Below are positions 2,835-26,209 of a stretch of 35,049 nucleotides of DNA, piece by piece; within the stretch, counting starts at the first letter, position 1, and every line of letters starts with the position of its first letter. The translations under genes were made by a program, and so were the position numbers. The stretch covers positions 1 to 35,049 of the IMG/VR virus record IMGVR_UViG_3300024346_007811, one strand, 5' to 3'. This stretch comes from a virus. The notes under the pieces were generated by a model that saw only the letters and a list, made by a program, of their open reading frames with translations, searched no databases and was not told the DNA's origin.

Positions 2835-2863
2835 ATTATAGTATTTACTTTAAATATTGTCTA
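2835..2863 (-). promoter_or_regulatory. Promoter of tRNA-Arg(TCT)
   Basis: TAGACA (2858-2863), a 17-nt spacer and TATAAT (2835-2840) on the minus strand end 8 nt before the tRNA. The start point would fall at or 1-2 nt before the mature 5' end. It lies inside the end of the SGNH gene and would also serve the downstream tRNA-Arg(CCG). Confidence 0.7.
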
Positions 2864-3761
2864 TAGCAAATAGATCTGAATAGTGTGCATGAGCATGTGA
2901 ACCCATATGCTCTTGAGGATCTGTGCCAACCTTGAAAAATCTTGGGTCTAAATTCTCAATATCTCTATGGCATTCATTGTAATTATTATCGTAGTCTGGC
3001 TTACTATTTACATAATTTTTAAATCCATAATTATGTTTATCAAAATGAATATTCAATTCGTTATGCCAGCTAGACCATTTAAAATCTATATCTGTCTGTA
3101 AAACATATTGCTCCAGCATTTTTATAGCAATTAAATTTGATCTAAATGGTACCGATGTAGGCATAATTTTTTCAATAGCAATAGGCAGCTTTTCATATTT
3201 TGCCATAGATCTATCCGCATCTGAAACGGTATTTAAAAACTCTCCTATCTTTCCTTGAGAATTTTGTATAAATGTATTTTCATTTGCTGCCTTAATAAAC
3301 TTAAACCTTAAAAAGTCTGGCAACAAAAGTCTTAGATATTTTGGGTGACCGTACGACTCAAAGTATTTAAATACATCTTCTACCATTGCAATTGTGCTGT
3401 TTCCTGGGTATGAAAGATTATTGTAAGACATGTTATTGTTTTTGGCTAACAGGTGAGTCCATGTCAACTCCTCTGGGACTCCGACTCCAAATGATTGGGA
3501 GCACCCAGATGTAAGTAGTTCTGATGACCCAAGCTCTGGTCCTCTGTATCCATGAGAATTAACAGAGTAGTCTACCTTTATCTTGCCCTTGTATGTAAAT
3601 TTTTTATAAGGCGCACCTAAGAATAGCTCTTTAACCATATTATTTTCTCTATACTGAGAGGTAATCAAATCTTCATATAGATCATTTTCTTGCGCCTCAG
3701 ATGTCAATATGCCAAAAAAATCTAGCGGGTATTTATCTTTGTCCCAAACTAATCTTTTCAT
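2850..3761 (-). CDS. SGNH/GDSL-like protein, paralogue of the 6118-7140 gene
   Basis: This 303-aa protein has SGNH-type blocks: a nucleophile loop GCSQSFG (G86-C87-S88), a glycine-asparagine block SYPGNS (G120, N121) and a C-terminal His cluster GSHAHAHYSDLF (H289, H291, H293). Family members hydrolyse or transfer acyl groups on esters and glycans; the substrate here is unknown. It aligns by eye with the protein at 6118-7140 across GCSxxxGxGxPxExT, GxPKxxxxLxPDFxRF and DFxWSxW, so the two are diverged duplicates. The aspartate of the canonical D-x-x-H block is not obvious. The start has a TAGGAG site and lies directly after tRNA-Met, probably on the same transcript. There is no signal peptide. 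Confidence 0.7.
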   Translation of the reverse strand: MKRLVWDKDKYPLDFFGILTSEAQENDLYEDLITSQYRENNMVKELFLGAPYKKFTYKGKIKVDYSVNSHGYRGPELGSSELLTSGCSQSFGVGVPEELTWTHLLAKNNNMSYNNLSYPGNSTIAMVEDVFKYFESYGHPKYLRLLLPDFLRFKFIKAANENTFIQNSQGKIGEFLNTVSDADRSMAKYEKLPIAIEKIMPTSVPFRSNLIAIKMLEQYVLQTDIDFKWSSWHNELNIHFDKHNYGFKNYVNSKPDYDNNYNECHRDIENLDPRFFKVGTDPQEHMGSHAHAHYSDLFAIDNI

Positions 3762-3774
3762 TTAATCTCCTATG

Positions 3775-3848
3775 TGTGCCAGGTAGGACTTGAACCTACG
3801 ATTACCGAATTATGAGTTCGGGGCTTTAACCAACTAAGCTACTGGCAC
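3775..3848 (-). tRNA. tRNA-Met (or Ile2), anticodon CAT
   Basis: A 74-nt tRNA has a perfect acceptor GTGCCAG/CTGGCAC, discriminator A, anticodon arm CCGAA/TTCGG with loop CTCATAA, and T arm GTAGG-TTCAAGT-CCTAC. CCA is not encoded. The paired G1-C72 excludes an initiator tRNA. With a CAT anticodon it could be elongator Met, or an isoleucine tRNA whose C34 is converted to lysidine; sequence alone does not decide. A consensus-like promoter ends 8 nt upstream. Confidence 0.93.
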
Positions 3849-3856
3849 CTAGTTGA

Positions 3857-3885
3857 ATTATACTTTTATTATTTAATATCGTCAA
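3857..3885 (-). promoter_or_regulatory. Promoter of tRNA-Met
   Basis: TTGACG (3880-3885), a 17-nt spacer and TATAAT (3857-3862) on the minus strand end 8 nt before the tRNA. This is one of the best sigma70-type matches in the window. The -35 box is inside the last codons of the SGNH gene at 3869. The geometry is identical to the tRNA-Arg promoter. Confidence 0.75.
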
Positions 3886-4630
3886 TAGATAGTTCGTTAG
3901 CCAAATAGTTTACGATTGGTTCGTAGTATTCTTGTTTCATATGATCATTTAACAATATATTGATTGGCTTTTTTGGCTGCTTGTATGGCTCTATCATATC
4001 GTCACCCAGGATGTTTCTTGTATTTATAGGCTCAGGAAGACCACGCTCTAAGCATTGTTTTTTTAGTTCATCTATAAACAACAGATGCTGTTCATGCCTC
4101 CGCTCAAATTCAATATCTGGATCACTTCTATTTTCTACCCATCCATTTGTAATAAAACAAATAAATTGAGGCAATGGCTCCATGAATACAACTTCACATT
4201 TATTAAATTTCTTTAACACATTATCAATGTATTTCGAAACAACTTCTTTTGCTCCAAGGTAGCCTGGCAAATCTGTCTGTGGGAGCCAGTTTCTTATGTC
4301 TATGTAGCCTAGCCATGGGACAACTATCCTGCCTGCCTCATTCCATTCATCTAGCTGTCTCTTTTGTGTACCGCTTGCAAAATTTTCAAAATCAAAGTTT
4401 AGCGCAGACCTCCCTGGATGTGATGACATCCATAGCTGGAGGCCTTTATCTTCATGAGTTTTTAAATAATCTTTTAGCCATATGTCCCTACCATCTTCAA
4501 CAATATGAGTCACATAATTTTGTTCTGAATATTGATAGTCTAGCTTTCTATTTTGTAGAAAAAAAATATCAGGAACACAGTTTCCTATTTTAGATGTATG
4601 AGAGTCTCCTATTACTAATATCTTTTTCAT
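3869..4630 (-). CDS. SGNH-fold protein (GDSH type), carbamoyltransferase partner
   Basis: This 253-aa protein opens with KKILVIGDSHTSKIG, the block-I motif of SGNH hydrolases and acyltransferase partners (G8-D9-S10-H11). A VPWLGYIDIRN segment may be the third block, and LLNDHMKQEYYEPI near the C-terminus could supply the catalytic His. It belongs to a different SGNH branch from the two flanking paralogues. Its ATG lies 2 nt after the stop of the carbamoyltransferase, so the two are co-translated and likely act in one pathway. A role in adding or removing a group on a sugar or other small ligand is inferred. There is no signal peptide or membrane segment. Confidence 0.7.
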   Translation of the reverse strand: MKKILVIGDSHTSKIGNCVPDIFFLQNRKLDYQYSEQNYVTHIVEDGRDIWLKDYLKTHEDKGLQLWMSSHPGRSALNFDFENFASGTQKRQLDEWNEAGRIVVPWLGYIDIRNWLPQTDLPGYLGAKEVVSKYIDNVLKKFNKCEVVFMEPLPQFICFITNGWVENRSDPDIEFERRHEQHLLFIDELKKQCLERGLPEPINTRNILGDDMIEPYKQPKKPINILLNDHMKQEYYEPIVNYLANELSIDDIK

Positions 4631-4632
4631 AT

Positions 4633-6054
4633 TTATCTAATTACCTTTGTGTTATACATAGATTCCCAATCTTTAATATCATTTTCATCGTTAAGTAGTG
4701 GCTGACCTTTTATATTTAGGCTTGTATTTAAAAGAACTGGAACCCCAGTCTGCAGATAGAATTTATTTAAAACTCTCCAAAGGCCTCTGTGCTGATCCTT
4801 ATTTACAGTTTGAACTCTTGATGTGCCATCTATATGAACAACAGAAGGAATCTTTTCTGGCTGCAAACACTTTACAGTGTATTGCATGTAAGGAGATGTA
4901 AAGTCCATTTCAAACCATTTAGACGCACACTCTTCCATAACAACTGGTGCAAACGGCCTAAACAGCTCACGCTGTTTGATATTGTTTACTTTATCCTTAA
5001 TGCTTCTATCTCTTGGATCCGCTAGTATACTTCTGTTTCCTAATGCTCTGGGTCCATATTCAGCTCTTCCACTTGCAACTGCTACAATTCCATCTTTAAG
5101 TATGCCGTCAATTATTTTTTGAACTGGATATTCCCCGCCAAGATCGTGGCCAAGGTAAGGATCTTTCCATTCAATATGTTTTCCATACATTGCTGCTGCT
5201 GCTCCTAACGAGCTTCCAGCATCCCCAGGGTTTGGCATAATCCAAATCATATCAAAGATTTTCCATAGCAGAGTATTTGCTGAAGAGTTTAGAGCGCATC
5301 CACCCATGAACACCAAGTTATTTTTGCCAGTTAGCGACTTTGCCATACGCATAAAATCGTTAAGTCTTTGTTCGTAAACTATTTGTGCTGCGGCTGCAAT
5401 GTCAAACTTATCTTCTTCTGAAACCCAGCCCCAATCTGTGATTCCTTTATGAAAATTATATTTTTGGCTAGTATATGAAGGGAAATAGTCGTTAACCTTT
5501 TTATAGTATTTGGTCCAATCTCCGTATGCGGCCATGCCCATCATAATATATTCTTCCTGGTTTGGCATTAGCCCTATTAGCTGAGTAAATGCCGAATAGA
5601 ATAATCCAAAACTAACTGGGTAGTTTTGCTTATACTTTAGTTTAATCTTATCACTTTCGCCAGTCCATATTGTAGAAGTGTTATATTCTCCTATGGCATC
5701 TAGAACCACTATAGCGGCATCGTTAAATGAACTCGTGTAATATCCTGCTGATGCATGGGAGTAGTGGTGGCCAAATGATTTACGGGGTATCCCGTCGATC
5801 TTAAACCTTGGGTTCCATTCACCTGAACCACCTCTTACAAGCAGCCTAGAGGCCTTCAGAAGGGGTTTCTCGTAGTAGGCTACAGCATCAGGTAGGCCGT
5901 AAGACAAAGCATCATTAACTAAACTATCATTGATATACCAATCATTTTTTTGCTTGCTATATCTCTCTGCATGACCTGCAAATAATACCTTTCCGTCCTC
6001 TATTAAAGACACGGAGGCATCATGAGATGTCTCATTAATTCCTAATATTCTCAT
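4633..6054 (-). CDS. NodU/CmcH/TobZ-family O-carbamoyltransferase
   Basis: This 473-aa enzyme is predicted to transfer a carbamoyl group from carbamoyl phosphate, via carbamoyl-adenylate, to a hydroxyl of a sugar or nucleoside. The N-terminal Kae1-like domain has GINETSHDAS (H11), HAERYSKQK, GHHYSHASAGYY (H96, H97, H100) and VVLDAIGE (D119), matching the metal and catalytic positions of TobZ. GGCALN, EYGPRALGNRSIL and LFRPFAPVV mark the YrdC-like half, and it ends shortly after LLNTSLN. It is shorter than the usual 540-600 residues, mostly by loss of the C-terminal tail. It starts at 6054 after an AT-rich leader with only a weak ribosome binding site. The acceptor is unknown. Confidence 0.92.
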   Translation of the reverse strand: MRILGINETSHDASVSLIEDGKVLFAGHAERYSKQKNDWYINDSLVNDALSYGLPDAVAYYEKPLLKASRLLVRGGSGEWNPRFKIDGIPRKSFGHHYSHASAGYYTSSFNDAAIVVLDAIGEYNTSTIWTGESDKIKLKYKQNYPVSFGLFYSAFTQLIGLMPNQEEYIMMGMAAYGDWTKYYKKVNDYFPSYTSQKYNFHKGITDWGWVSEEDKFDIAAAAQIVYEQRLNDFMRMAKSLTGKNNLVFMGGCALNSSANTLLWKIFDMIWIMPNPGDAGSSLGAAAAMYGKHIEWKDPYLGHDLGGEYPVQKIIDGILKDGIVAVASGRAEYGPRALGNRSILADPRDRSIKDKVNNIKQRELFRPFAPVVMEECASKWFEMDFTSPYMQYTVKCLQPEKIPSVVHIDGTSRVQTVNKDQHRGLWRVLNKFYLQTGVPVLLNTSLNIKGQPLLNDENDIKDWESMYNTKVIR

Positions 6055-6117
6055 TAGTATATAAACCTATTCTTTTTTTTCTTTTTAAATTTTTGAATTA
6101 TTTTATATATGTAATAT

Positions 6118-7140
6118 TTAATTACTATCACGATTTAGGACTCCTTTTAAGTAATTTAAAAAAGTTTCAGCGTAATGCAGATGTCTATGATGACCAAAAT
6201 GTGAGTGTTCTATACCTTTTTCTCTATCAAGAGCTACGTGAAAACTTGTGCTGTTGTTTTTATCTTCGTGACAATTTATTTTATTTTTTGTTTCTGGATC
6301 ATGCAGGATGTCCAAATCTCCAGAGACAGACCAATTTTCTGGGCTACAGCTAATATAATTTTCAAAGTTTATTTTTTTAATAAGCTCATTAGTAGTAGTA
6401 TCCCATGTGCTCCAAACAAAATCTATACCAGCTGCCTTACAATAAAGAGACAGCATATCTATATACTGAGCGGCGTACATGTGTGAAATTTCTTCAGTAA
6501 TAACATCATTTGCGATCAGAGGTCTCTTATATATTCCTTTTGGGTTTTGTTCTGCAGAAACTGTTGTACTATTTTTAATCATAAAATTCATATACTCTTT
6601 AGTTCTAAAATCATTTTCAGATTGAGTATTTGCCCATACAAAAGTCTTTTCATCATAAGAATCAAAAAATGATTGTGACGCAAGCAAAGCTTGATTATTA
6701 AATGTAAGGAATCTATTAAAGTCTGGGAACAATGCTACTATTTTTTTAGGGTTTCCAAATTCATTTATATAAGAAAAAATTTTACTTATCTGTCCAGGGA
6801 TGCTGTCACCGTATCTTGCAACAGAGTTATACTCTACATGCAAATTATTACTTAATATGTAAGGCATTGTTTCTTCTATTGGTAGCCCTAGTCCTGAAGC
6901 TACTGAGCATCCAGCAAATAATAGATCTATATCTTTTTTAAATTTAGGTGATCTAAATCCATACTCGTTATATTCGCATATGGAGCCGAACTCCATCCTC
7001 TTCCATCCACCGTTCTTTATAAGATTTAATTTATTCTTATATATATCAGACTCTATCCCTGGATAGTAGTATACAGACTTTGATGCCTTTTCATTAACAA
7101 TTGATTCGGCAAGGCTGCTTGAAGTAAATTTAGCTTTCAT
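6118..7140 (-). CDS. SGNH/GDSL-like protein, paralogue of the 2850-3761 gene
   Basis: This 340-aa protein has the GCSVASGLGLP nucleophile loop (G77-C78-S79), RYGDSIPGQ (110-118), PDFNRF, DFVWSTWD and a C-terminal His cluster GHHRHLHYAETF (H317, H318, H320, H322). It matches the 2850-3761 product along most of its length but has a longer middle region. A hydrolase or acyltransferase role is inferred from the SGNH pattern only. The start lies inside the end of the upstream zinc-ribbon gene (11-nt overlap), so it is translationally coupled to the terminase operon. The 63-nt gap between its start-distal end and the carbamoyltransferase is a poly-A/T leader with no clear promoter. Confidence 0.68.
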   Translation of the reverse strand: MKAKFTSSSLAESIVNEKASKSVYYYPGIESDIYKNKLNLIKNGGWKRMEFGSICEYNEYGFRSPKFKKDIDLLFAGCSVASGLGLPIEETMPYILSNNLHVEYNSVARYGDSIPGQISKIFSYINEFGNPKKIVALFPDFNRFLTFNNQALLASQSFFDSYDEKTFVWANTQSENDFRTKEYMNFMIKNSTTVSAEQNPKGIYKRPLIANDVITEEISHMYAAQYIDMLSLYCKAAGIDFVWSTWDTTTNELIKKINFENYISCSPENWSVSGDLDILHDPETKNKINCHEDKNNSTSFHVALDREKGIEHSHFGHHRHLHYAETFLNYLKGVLNRDSN

Positions 7141-9721: not shown

Positions 9722-10048
9722 CTAAGACTTATTGGCAATTTTTAAAAGAATTAGGTATCCTATTAGATCATCAATATCATTGTCTCCAGGGAAAGCCTGA
9801 TCATTCTGAATTCTATTTAACTTGTCATCAATACGGACTCTAATTTGTTCCTTTGAATCCGCCTTTGAAAATATACGAATTGGATCTAGCGCTGAGTTCC
9901 CATACGACACATTCTTTTTAATTAGCATCTCTGCCATCTCTAAACACTCAACAATAATTTTTTGTCCTGATGGTGCATCTGTTGCAATTAATTGAAGGTC
10001 GGTTATCCACGCCTGGTACCCGCCCGATTTATTTGGGTAGTCACTCAT
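9722..10048 (-). CDS. DUF1599 / nucleotide-modification-associated domain 1 protein
   Basis: This 108-aa protein begins MSDYPNKSGG and contains the family pattern KNVSYGNSALDPIRIFSK, RVRIDDKLNRIQN and DNDIDDLIGYLILL. This domain is common in phages and was linked by Aravind and colleagues to nucleotide or base modification gene clusters; no enzyme activity is established. The frame is open further upstream to 10111, but the ATG at 10048 overlaps the stop of a 48-aa HTH gene as ATGA. That junction and the homology boundary make it the true start. Confidence 0.8.
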   Translation of the reverse strand: MSDYPNKSGGYQAWITDLQLIATDAPSGQKIIVECLEMAEMLIKKNVSYGNSALDPIRIFSKADSKEQIRVRIDDKLNRIQNDQAFPGDNDIDDLIGYLILLKIANKS

Positions 10049-10191
10049 TTTTTTCTTAGCAGTCCAAACTCTTGTAAATATCTCTGTATAGTCATAGCAG
10101 AGACACCGCACTCTTTACCTATTTCTGTAACTGTTTTCTTTTGTACTATGTACCTTCTGTAAAGCCAATCTTTACTCTGATAAAGTTTCAT
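10045..10191 (-). CDS. 48-aa helix-turn-helix protein
   Basis: This short gene was found by reading the gap between resolvase and DUF1599 genes. The protein starts MKLYQSKDWLYRRY and contains KTVTEIGKECGVSAMTIQRYL (about 19-39), a classic HTH in the style of small phage or homing-endonuclease DNA-binding modules. Its ATG overlaps the resolvase stop and its stop overlaps the next start, both as ATGA, which strongly supports translation. It may be a transcription regulator or a remnant of a larger endonuclease C-terminus. Confidence 0.8.
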   Translation of the reverse strand: MKLYQSKDWLYRRYIVQKKTVTEIGKECGVSAMTIQRYLQEFGLLRKK

Positions 10192-20287: not shown

Positions 20288-20316
20288 ATTCTACTAAATA
20301 GAATAGGGGCAGTCAA
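20288..20316 (-). promoter_or_regulatory. Leaderless promoter of the polymerase operon
   Basis: TTGACT (20311-20316), a 17-nt spacer and TAGAAT (20288-20293) on the minus strand are followed by 6 nt and the ATG at 20281. The -35 box is built into the loop and downstream arm of the SSB terminator hairpin. This is the leaderless site with the best -35 box. Confidence 0.7.
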
Positions 20317-20329
20317 TAGACTGCCCCTA
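20304..20329 (-). terminator. Intrinsic terminator after the SSB gene
   Basis: An 11-bp perfect stem (20304-20314 with 20319-20329; core GGGGCAGTC/GACTGCCCC) has a 4-nt loop and lies 12 nt after the SSB stop. The downstream tail on the minus strand is TTCTATTT, only moderately U-rich. It could end transcription in the SSB direction. The plus-strand side is also AT-rich but there are no genes there. Confidence 0.72.
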
Positions 20330-24137: not shown

Positions 24138-24261
24138 CTTTTGAGCCAACAATCTTTAATACCACTGGGCCATTTAATGAATTCCAGTAATCTGTCTCTG
24201 CTTCTTTCTTGCGCTTTTTAGAAGCACCAGTTTCAAGTGTATACTTCACTGGTTCAACCAT
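24127..24261 (-). CDS. 44-aa unknown basic protein
   Basis: Read in the gap: MVEPVKYTLETGASKKRKKEAETDY-like N-terminus with a SKKRKKE basic patch, then NGPVVLKIVGSKDGK. No family is recognised. The ATG overlaps the HTH-gene stop as TAATG and its end overlaps the zinc-finger micro-gene by 11 nt, which argues for real translation. Confidence 0.65.
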   Translation of the reverse strand: MVEPVKYTLETGASKKRKKEAETDYWNSLNGPVVLKIVGSKDGK

Positions 24262-24746
24262 TACTCCGCCTTCCATATTGGGATAAACTTTCCCTCATCG
24301 GTTTTAGTATACAATATAAAGTTGTTTTTGAGAAGCCCCAATAATTCTGCCTTAGATGGAATTTCAGAAGAATGGCCTGAGTCTAATATATGTTGATGTA
24401 TATCAAGTATGTGTTTTTGATTAAACATATATTTGGACCAAGTCGGGCTATCTGGATCACCAATTGGATATATCTTTGCTGGAGATAAAACCTTTCCCTC
24501 TAAGATATAATCTTGTATTGTAACTCTATGCTTATTAAGCATGGCTGAAACTTCTACAATAGTATAGGCATTTTCCATATTCTTTTTTGCTTGAGAATAT
24601 GAATACATAACTCTTTTTTTGTCTACATAGCACCAAGCAACTAGTTCATCTTTTGATCTTGATGAACTAAGTACCTTATGGATCTTATCGTTTAAGAAGA
24701 AATACCGTAGGTTTTTTGATTTGCCGTCTCTTTTTGATCTAGCCAT
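24261..24746 (-). CDS. MerR/excisionase-like HTH DNA-binding protein
   Basis: This 161-aa protein has an N-terminal basic region with FLNDKIHKVLSSSRSKD and WCYVDKKRVMYSYS. A helix-turn-helix of the MerR/excisionase kind follows (about 60-85: YTIVEVSAMLNKHRVTIQDYI), then a wing-like EGKVLSPAKIYP. It probably binds phage DNA as an early regulator or in replication initiation; there is no integrase nearby to support an excisionase role. It overlaps the preceding zinc-ribbon gene by 55 nt in another frame, which is large for this operon, so the start may be slightly internal. Confidence 0.78.
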   Translation of the reverse strand: MARSKRDGKSKNLRYFFLNDKIHKVLSSSRSKDELVAWCYVDKKRVMYSYSQAKKNMENAYTIVEVSAMLNKHRVTIQDYILEGKVLSPAKIYPIGDPDSPTWSKYMFNQKHILDIHQHILDSGHSSEIPSKAELLGLLKNNFILYTKTDEGKFIPIWKAE

Positions 24747-24877
24747 TTACCGAAAGCACTCGTTTCTTTATTGATCATCCAGCGTTTCCCGCACATTATA
24801 CAGAAAAGCTCCATATGAAGTTTTTGTGAAAATACTCTGTCAACAAAAACTCTACCTCTACATTTTCCACACCACAT
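24692..24877 (-). CDS. Small two-CxxC zinc-ribbon protein
   Basis: This 61-aa protein starts MWCGKCRGRVFVDRVF and continues LFCIMCGKRW. The pairs C3/C6 and C27/C30 make a complete C4 ribbon of about 30 residues, followed by a polar tail. The frame is open to 24910, but the ATG at 24877 overlaps the phosphoesterase stop as TAATG and starts right at the first Cys pair. A DNA- or RNA-polymerase-binding regulator is one possibility. Confidence 0.78.
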   Translation of the reverse strand: MWCGKCRGRVFVDRVFSQKLHMELFCIMCGKRWMINKETSAFGKWLDQKETANQKTYGISS

Positions 24878-25677
24878 TATAAAGTAAACAACTTTCCGTC
24901 TACAACGCATGAGTAGTCTGGTGAAACGTGAATCATCTGTACGTGAGGATAATCATTTACAATATGTGCAACAGCAAATCCCTTTTGCCAGTCATGGTGC
25001 TGAGTGTATTTCATTCCTGGACCCTTTTCATCACACATGTGCCCAATCTCGTATCCTCTTAATGTTTCGCCTTCTCCATTATTTCTTAGTTCATAAGTAA
25101 CCATGTGTGAAGCAATTCTATGAGAGTGTCCTCTAATCAAAGATATCTGCATGTCTTCCATGTCTTTTCTTGCTGAGCCTGTTGCTGCAATTGACATTCC
25201 ATGGTGTACGTGAATATCTCCGAAGCGGCGCTTTGGAAGATCGTCATAATAAATATACTCATACCCCAAAGAGTCTAATGACCACAGGGCTTCTGGTGTT
25301 ACTTCATTGATGTAGTCTGGAAGTTTAGCATCTATATAATTAAAAATTCTTATGTCGTGATTTCCAAGTGCTGAGAATAGCTGTGCGTTTGGAAGCATCT
25401 CTCTAGTCTTAGCATAGAAATCCCTAGCGCCTTTTGCCTCATGTCGCATCATTGGCACAATTAAATCTTTGCTATCGTTCTTATGCAATTGTAAAAATTC
25501 TGCAGAGCGTCCTTCAGTATACTTGCTATAGCAAGCCTGATCATCTGTATCGCCAAGGTAGTCAACGACGTCTGGCTTAAACCACTTCATTACCTTAAAC
25601 CATAGAGCAATCATCTTGTCATCTTGGTATGGGAACTGCTGATCGGATGAAAGCATCCATTTTAAATCGTTACTCAT
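24877..25677 (-). CDS. Calcineurin-like metallophosphoesterase
   Basis: This 266-aa enzyme has the metallophosphoesterase motif series D12-x-Q14, GDTDD (D43), GNHD (N106, H107, D108), HHG (H158, H159) and GHSH (H184, H186). The first motif normally reads D-x-H; Q14 replaces that His, so one metal site may be weaker. The substrate may be nucleic-acid ends, cyclic nucleotides or a phosphoester; it is unknown. It is the first gene of the early region, directly behind the operator-controlled promoter and terminator hairpin. An AAAGGT site lies before the ATG. Confidence 0.87.
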   Translation of the reverse strand: MSNDLKWMLSSDQQFPYQDDKMIALWFKVMKWFKPDVVDYLGDTDDQACYSKYTEGRSAEFLQLHKNDSKDLIVPMMRHEAKGARDFYAKTREMLPNAQLFSALGNHDIRIFNYIDAKLPDYINEVTPEALWSLDSLGYEYIYYDDLPKRRFGDIHVHHGMSIAATGSARKDMEDMQISLIRGHSHRIASHMVTYELRNNGEGETLRGYEIGHMCDEKGPGMKYTQHHDWQKGFAVAHIVNDYPHVQMIHVSPDYSCVVDGKLFTL

Positions 25678-25693
25678 TATCTACCTTTATACG

Positions 25694-25717
25694 AAAAAAG
25701 TCACGGGTACGTGACTT
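25694..25717 (-). terminator. Intrinsic terminator in the leader of the early region
   Basis: An 8-bp perfect stem (25698-25705 with 25710-25717; AAGTCACG/CGTGACTT) has a 4-nt loop and is followed on the minus strand by TTTT (25697-25694), making six consecutive T with the stem end. It lies between the predicted start of the early promoter (about 25724) and the phosphoesterase ATG. It should stop read-through from the tail genes, and also attenuate the early promoter unless antitermination occurs. Confidence 0.75.
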
Positions 25718-25719
25718 AG

Positions 25720-25740
25720 ATGTTACAATAATTGTAACAT
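25720..25740. promoter_or_regulatory. 21-bp perfect palindrome, probable repressor operator
   Basis: Ten-base arms ATGTTACAAT and ATTGTAACAT flank a single central A. The -10 box of the early promoter lies wholly in one arm, and the predicted start site is in the other. This is the position expected for a dimeric HTH repressor that blocks RNA polymerase. No repressor gene is identifiable in this window other than the HTH proteins at 24261 and 10045. Confidence 0.75.
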
Positions 25741-25758
25741 ATTAGTGGAGCGTGTCAA
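25731..25758 (-). promoter_or_regulatory. Early-region promoter
   Basis: Perfect TTGACA (25753-25758), 16-nt spacer and extended -10 TGT-TACAAT (25731-25736) on the minus strand directly follow the stop of the last tail gene. It is the only site with a perfect -35 that I found. It would drive the long replication operon to the left. Confidence 0.75.
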
Positions 25759-25762
25759 TAGG

Positions 25763-26209
25763 TTAAGCGAGCTGTCCTGTAACAAATAATGTAAATTTCA
25801 TGGTGCCATTTGCTGTACTAGTTCTAAATAGCAAATCGCAAGATGTGGCACCAACGCTCACAACTTGAGGGAAAATCTGTGAATTGGCAAATGACGAAGT
25901 TGAGTTCATTTGAACCCAAACAGAAGGTGTTCCTACAAAGGTCTTGCCATAGGATACCGTTTTAGCATTTGTTGCTGAAGCAGCAGAAGAAACTTTTACT
26001 GAGCTTGGGACTGGAACAATTGTATTATATGCAACTGTGGTTTTCTTTGTAGGGTCTGTTGCATTTGAAAGTCCAGAGGCATCCACGGCAATATTAGATA
26101 CCGTTTCTCCCTTTGCTACAGTCTGTAGGTTCTGTATAATTAAACCAAGCAGGTCTGATGTTACAGGGTCTCCTGCATTAATAGACATTGGTTTTAATGT
26201 AATTGCCAT
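25763..26209 (-). CDS. Tail-associated protein with lectin-like C-terminus
   Basis: This 148-aa protein has a helical N-terminus (DLLGLIIQNLQTVAKGE), a Ser/Thr/Ala-rich linker, and a beta-rich C-terminal half (VSYGKTFVGTPSVWVQMNS ... FRTSTANGTMKFTLFVTGQ). The second half has the look of an H-type-lectin receptor-binding domain seen at the ends of phage fibre operons. Sugar or receptor binding is inferred. It is the last late gene, with an AAAGGAG site, and ends just before the early promoter. Confidence 0.7.
   Translation of the reverse strand: MAITLKPMSINAGDPVTSDLLGLIIQNLQTVAKGETVSNIAVDASGLSNATDPTKKTTVAYNTIVPVPSSVKVSSAASATNAKTVSYGKTFVGTPSVWVQMNSTSSFANSQIFPQVVSVGATSCDLLFRTSTANGTMKFTLFVTGQLA

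Follow-up and report, generated by a model that had tools for sequence, protein, structure and literature searches.

A single-copy composite promoter-terminator element, placed at the boundary between co-directional tail and replication gene blocks, is our preferred reading (probability about 0.4) of a compact cassette in a viral record, of which a stretch of 35,049 nucleotides, here called the window, was analysed. The cassette consists of a host-like promoter whose -10 element and predicted start site lie within a 21-bp palindrome (IR1), followed by a terminator-like hairpin (IR2) and a T-tract. A preliminary description had taken these parts for a repressor switch, which could mean a temperate or pseudolysogenic lifestyle; we find that a boundary of transcription is the likelier role for the cassette, rather than a repressor switch for lysogeny.

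The cassette lies in an 85-base gap that runs from the last tail-block gene (stop at 25763) to a metallophosphoesterase gene (start at 25677), both on the minus strand. Sequence reading and a pattern scan placed all of its parts on this strand, which also carries the main genes of the window. The features are as follows.

25763–26209, minus strand: upstream gene, with which the tail/fibre block ends; it matches H-type lectin weakly (E 0.031, below the cut-off)
25753–25758, minus strand: -35 element TTGACA, from sequence and pattern scan
25731–25739, minus strand: extended -10 element TGTTACAAT, with the hexamer TACAAT at 25731–25736 and a 16-bp spacer to the -35 element
25724, minus strand: predicted transcription start, an A 7 nt past the -10 element, from whose position it is deduced
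25720–25740, no strand assigned: IR1, a perfect 21-bp palindrome overlapping the -10 element, the start site and the first leader bases; it reads ATGTTACAATTATTGTAACAT from 25740 to 25720
25740–25733 and 25727–25720, minus strand: conserved arms of IR1, ATGTTACA and TGTAACAT
25698–25717, minus strand: IR2, a terminator-like 8-bp stem-loop, AAGTCACG-TACC-CGTGACTT
25694–25699, minus strand: tract of six T after the IR2 stem, the first two also paired in the stem
25684–25687, minus strand: AAGG, putative ribosome-binding site by sequence, free of IR2
24877–25677, minus strand: metallophosphoesterase gene, opening the replication block (phrog_221, E 2.7e-53)
24261–24746, minus strand: MerR-like helix-turn-helix (HTH) protein (phrog_9440), a candidate regulator with no link to IR1

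The promoter, the perfect palindrome over its -10 element and the terminator-like hairpin about 7 nt past the predicted start, all listed in the preliminary description, were confirmed in the sequence. The 16-bp spacer given there was also correct, but it ends at the hexamer TACAAT and not at TGTTACAAT. Since the predicted start is the A at 25724, IR2 begins 7 nt later. A scan of 12 kb gave 32 sigma-70-like sites, of which the cassette promoter ranked first, with 11 of 12 matches and a TG ahead of the -10 element; one other site also had 11 of 12, without the TG. In a single-strand fold both hairpins formed (-16.6 kcal/mol, z -5.7). IR1 itself is A+T-rich and folds at -6.9 kcal/mol; calculated as DNA, it gave -6.4 kcal/mol, equally on either strand. 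Under a first-order Markov null, the number of inverted repeats expected per 35 kb is 0.35 for arms of 10 bp or more and a spacer of 1–8, and an exact 10-1-10 palindrome is expected 0.075 times per simulated copy of the window. Only one copy of the palindrome is present in the record, also when up to three mismatches are allowed; the preliminary description had suggested a search for further copies, and none were found. A palindrome regulon was accordingly rejected, as was a dispersed cassette, IR2 being single-copy too. Rfam gave no match for the cassette.

To follow the cassette among relatives, three protein-based scans of viral contigs were used, two of which returned 573–577 related stretches per scan; together the three yielded 237 upstream regions, 140 of them unique, which formed 95 clusters. 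A comparable promoter, defined as TTGAC and TANNNT spaced by 16–17 bp, was present in 79 of the 95 non-redundant representatives, and 74 of these 79 also carried the TG. TTGACA was identical throughout an alignment of 26 rows. Nearly all of the 79 had a stem-loop 3' of the promoter, and in 67 of them at least five T stood near its end, so that a stable stem with a direct U-tract, the hallmark of an intrinsic terminator, is found in most relatives. IR1 retained at least six of its eight pairs in 49 of the 79 and all eight in 32. The preliminary description had named lack of conservation in relatives as one of two points that could overturn its reading, and on this point the palindrome held. A recognisable IR1 was absent from 29 of 75 relatives compared, and it has been lost in several lineages. 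A pattern search for the palindrome in viral contigs gave 120 matches, of which 57 lay at the phosphoesterase gene; the others that were inspected look unrelated.

Some representatives without the comparable promoter have, by eye, an HNH-like reading frame directly upstream, or another promoter. In five relatives (L397, L492, L452, L374 and L396) the phosphoesterase is preceded by another promoter and, by eye, by an HNH-like frame just upstream; their HTH allele is about 37–41% identical to that of the window, and their phosphoesterase 80–91%.

Among cultured phages, the best phosphoesterase homologue found was that of Rhodococcus phage NiceHouse (59%). The order tail, phosphoesterase, MerR-like HTH and DnaB helicase is common to NiceHouse and the Streptomyces phages TunaTartare, Braelyn and Bmoc, and Grayson has tail, phosphoesterase and then DnaB. 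TunaTartare carries TTGACT-17-TACAAT with a strong stem 14 nt past the -10 element and no clear IR1, so the promoter-plus-hairpin plan may be older than IR1. Only a promoter-like site was seen in Braelyn and Bmoc, and neither promoter nor hairpin was seen by eye in NiceHouse and Grayson. From these relatives and the G+C content of the window (37.5%), the hosts are probably low-G+C aquatic actinobacteria. No relatives were found in host genomes, a result of little weight since the query was a 63-residue composite of one relative (L278) and the window, some positions being filled in. A replication origin at the cassette was considered and rejected, as the cumulative G-C skew, followed in two long relatives, has no turning point there.

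The arms of both hairpins are conserved as pairs. In the 26-sequence alignment 90.8% of cells were paired, compared with 26–51% when the partners were slid, and 27 cells carried double changes against 7.5 in shuffles. The match between each sequence's own left and right arms of IR1 was 499, against 469 (sd 5.4) when arms were swapped between sequences; the observed pairing was reached in none of 1000 swaps and in none of 300 shuffles. Double-sided changes occurred at six of the eight pairs of IR2 and at two of the eight of IR1, there mainly as T-A to C-G at the N of TGN, where we counted T-A 36, C-G 11, C-A 4 and T-G 2 (the pair counts correct only partly for relatedness). On the phosphoesterase tree each IR1 arm underwent at least 11 changes. 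A sign test on independent pairs gave a median p of 0.125, with pairs too few for significance and all informative ones in the expected direction; where both arms moved in independent pairs, they always moved together. Mismatches in IR1 were G-U in 11 cases and A-C in 15, that is, without an excess of G-U, and this comparison is uninformative on pairing at the RNA level because IR2 gave no excess either.

Among 45 representatives with at least seven paired positions the IR1 spacer was 5 nt in 28, 7 nt in nine, 6 nt in six, and 3 and 8 nt in one each, and in a wider set of 57 it changed at least 22 times on the tree. The half-site spacing is thus mostly 5–7 nt and varies, where a fixed one would be expected of a temperate repressor operator. 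An extra inner pair was found in 6 of 9 seven-nucleotide spacers against 6 of 28 five-nucleotide ones. Between the right arm of IR1 and IR2 the gap was 2 nt in 37 of 44 measurable cases, 1 nt in four and 3 nt in three. A spacer that varies beside a gap that is nearly fixed fits tandem stem-loops better than a rigid dimeric operator, and speaks for structure in the nucleic acid itself rather than for a stiff site bound by a dimer. In L351, a distant relative with unrelated arms, two adjacent hairpins still fold; in L353 and L373 they are not clean. Relatives of the GGCCATG type, which lack the U-tract, have stronger IR2 stems (-15 to -19 kcal/mol, against a mean of -10.8). Relatives without the U-tract have, overall, a weaker IR1, an association that ignores phylogeny.

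We propose that a strong promoter of the host sigma-A type restarts transcription into the replication block. With the -10 element and start site inside IR1, the cassette would present IR1 and IR2 as a tandem pair of stem-loops that leads into a U-tract. RNA reading through from the tail genes would carry both stem-loops and be terminated efficiently, whereas RNA from the embedded promoter would begin inside the right arm of IR1, lack hairpin 1, meet IR2 only, about 30 nt from its start, and pass part of the time. The net effect would be that tail transcription is stopped and the cassette's own promoter still feeds the replication genes. The transcription start, the termination, the difference in read-through and the action of IR1 as RNA are what we infer from the conserved parts. 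RNA that contains hairpin 1 must have started upstream, in the tail block; together with the preference for a nucleic-acid structure, this favours the boundary element. Against it stand the A+T-rich IR1, the relatives that lack a recognisable IR1, and IR2 as an obstacle that transcripts from the embedded promoter would still have to pass. Hairpins in tandem were better terminators than single ones downstream of gyrA in M. smegmatis, as cited in PMC8355165. A more specific proposal is a terminator that senses where transcription began, its -10 element lying in the leading hairpin of a tandem pair; polymerases arriving from upstream would make both hairpins and stop, and those starting in hairpin 1 would make only the second and pass. 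This we regard as tentative and rather unlikely. Antitermination at the cassette, which the preliminary description had suggested, is possible.

The main rival keeps the model of the preliminary description without its lysogeny. IR1 would be a DNA operator at which a phage or host dimer, bound to the dyad from -10 to +5, represses or autoregulates the replication promoter, and IR2 an attenuator on the same transcript; we consider this possible but somewhat unlikely. It would account for a dyad spanning the -10 element and start site, for arms that covary at the N of TGN, a position that RNA polymerase does not need, and for promoters in L351 and L353 overlapped by different dyads. The host-type promoter, the non-chance dyad and the terminator-like hairpin, all part of the repressor reading, are indeed conserved, but its rigid operator fits poorly with a half-site spacer ranging from 3 to 8 nt and with one site per genome among exact or near-exact matches. 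Nor does the presence of IR1 follow the MerR-like HTH gene: fitting it to the tree of that gene takes 13 changes, as against 13 for a neighbouring gene, 15 for DnaB and 17 for the phosphoesterase. As the first two numbers are equal, there is no special link between this HTH protein and IR1. The protein at 24261–24746, named earlier as a candidate for binding the palindrome, is found in nearly all relatives whether IR1 is present or absent. Its model (pLDDT 81) gave weak structure matches, the best with E 0.085, mostly to the MerR family and BldC. We therefore rejected it as a dedicated repressor on its tree fit, no better than that of its neighbours, and on these weak MerR/BldC-like matches. 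The second candidate named earlier, a 48-residue HTH reading frame at 10045–10191, does exist, and two long relatives encode close homologues of it, but no finding connects it with IR1. No match to Phage_integrase (PF00589), Resolvase (PF00239) or HTH_3 (PF01381) was found in 12 long relatives, whose records may be incomplete, while positive-control genomes scored. The nearest cultured relatives belong to the Rhodococcus clusters CB (Grayson) and CE (NiceHouse), which PMC13313380 describes as lytic or virulent. The temperate or pseudolysogenic life earlier raised as a possibility is thus not supported, nor is a temperate switch.

Other readings of IR1 dispense with a repressor. Extrusion of IR1 as a cruciform that senses supercoiling, or an IR1 without present function, appears improbable to us: equal folding on both strands as DNA and the loss of IR1 in several lineages agree with it, but the arms are short for a cruciform, and the failure of swaps and shuffles to reach the observed pairing argues against the absence of function. 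That IR2 mainly stabilises the 5' end of the mRNA, with IR1 a by-product of the extended -10 element, is quite improbable. IR2 stands close to the predicted 5' end (about 7 nt away), leaves AAGG free and occurs without a U-tract in some relatives, yet most relatives keep that tract and the IR1 arms covary. Very improbable, finally, is a bidirectional promoter with facing extended -10 elements. Its starts would diverge at a distance of about 12 bp, and the second of them would produce RNA antisense to the tail gene. The opposite strand of the window also reads TGTTACAAT, TANNNT occurs on the opposite strand in 24 of 28 relatives with a five-nucleotide spacer, and the start distance falls within a defined bacterial class of divergent promoter pairs 7–25 bp apart (PMC10268837). 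However, opposite-strand TANNNT is found in none of nine relatives with a seven-nucleotide spacer, despite conserved arms; by eye the opposite strand has no good -35 element, and the covariation at the free N position is left unexplained.

It is known that phage repressor operators overlap early promoters. The cassette likewise has a dyad over the -10 element and start site, but with variable half-site spacing and a single site, and no repressor or integrase was found in the long relatives searched. The nearest known kind is the promoter early stem-loop (PeSL) of T4-like phages, termed "composite conserved promoter-terminator motifs" (Arbiol 2010 and Comeau 2014, as described in PMC4503421, a citing paper on which our comparison relies). 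Like PeSLs, the cassette joins a compact host-like promoter to a stem-loop in an intergenic region of a phage, here next to the variable end of a tail gene; this likeness is one of sequence. PeSLs are, by the same citing paper, expected at high density, in many copies in gene-shuffling regions, whereas each long relative searched has one copy of the cassette, with the -10 element inside the palindrome and in an unrelated phage group. U- and V-shaped tandem-hairpin terminators also have two stem-loops a few nucleotides apart and are reported in PMC8355165 as effective, including after M. smegmatis gyrA; in the cassette, by contrast, a promoter extends into hairpin 1, whose pairing is conserved around a variable loop, and most copies add a U-tract. 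In Tn916, with T1 and canT (PMC11658703), and in conAn operons (PMC8955417), a terminator likewise guards against read-through from upstream and the element's own transcripts must pass terminators; there antitermination operates, whereas for the cassette no gene or RNA with an antitermination role was identified, and discrimination is proposed to come from the loss of hairpin 1. The HK022 putL RNA (PMC9378689) likewise opens a phage early transcript with RNA stem-loops, but put spans some 70 nt and forms two stem-loops within the transcript of its own promoter, while the cassette RNA would have a single 8-bp hairpin just past the predicted start, ending in a U-tract. The parts of the cassette are hence of known kinds; a promoter inside hairpin 1, with a pair-conserved stem around a variable loop, was not found described in the literature searched, PeSLs being judged from the citing paper.

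The cassette stands at the tail/replication boundary of a widespread phage group related to cultured Streptomyces and Rhodococcus phages. If the boundary reading is true, the phage would keep co-directional operons apart by an element of about 65 bp that needs no antitermination proteins, a reading for which natural variants carrying matched changes offer a test. If the operator reading is true, the cassette would indicate a regulator not yet described, in a lineage with lytic cultured members.

Other compact sites were noted in the course of the analysis. A second promoter-terminator composite lies at 20288–20329 of the window, minus strand; its hairpin is TAGGGGCAGTC-TATT-GACTGCCCCTA, the loop and 3' arm of which hold a -35-like TTGACT, followed by TAGAAT and an ATG about 8 nt further on, and similar copies occur in L506 (near 15955) and L514 (near 14072). 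TTGACA-16-TACAAT without a palindrome was seen directly 5' of tRNA-like sequence in L082, L100, L102 and L108. L109 and L111 have a promoter of the form TTGACA...TAGTAGAAT with an ATG within about 8 nt, which suggests a near-leaderless mRNA. Elsewhere on the minus strand of the window, at 460–867 and 2850–7140, the translations by eye resemble a small heat-shock protein and several products that may modify carbohydrates or surfaces.
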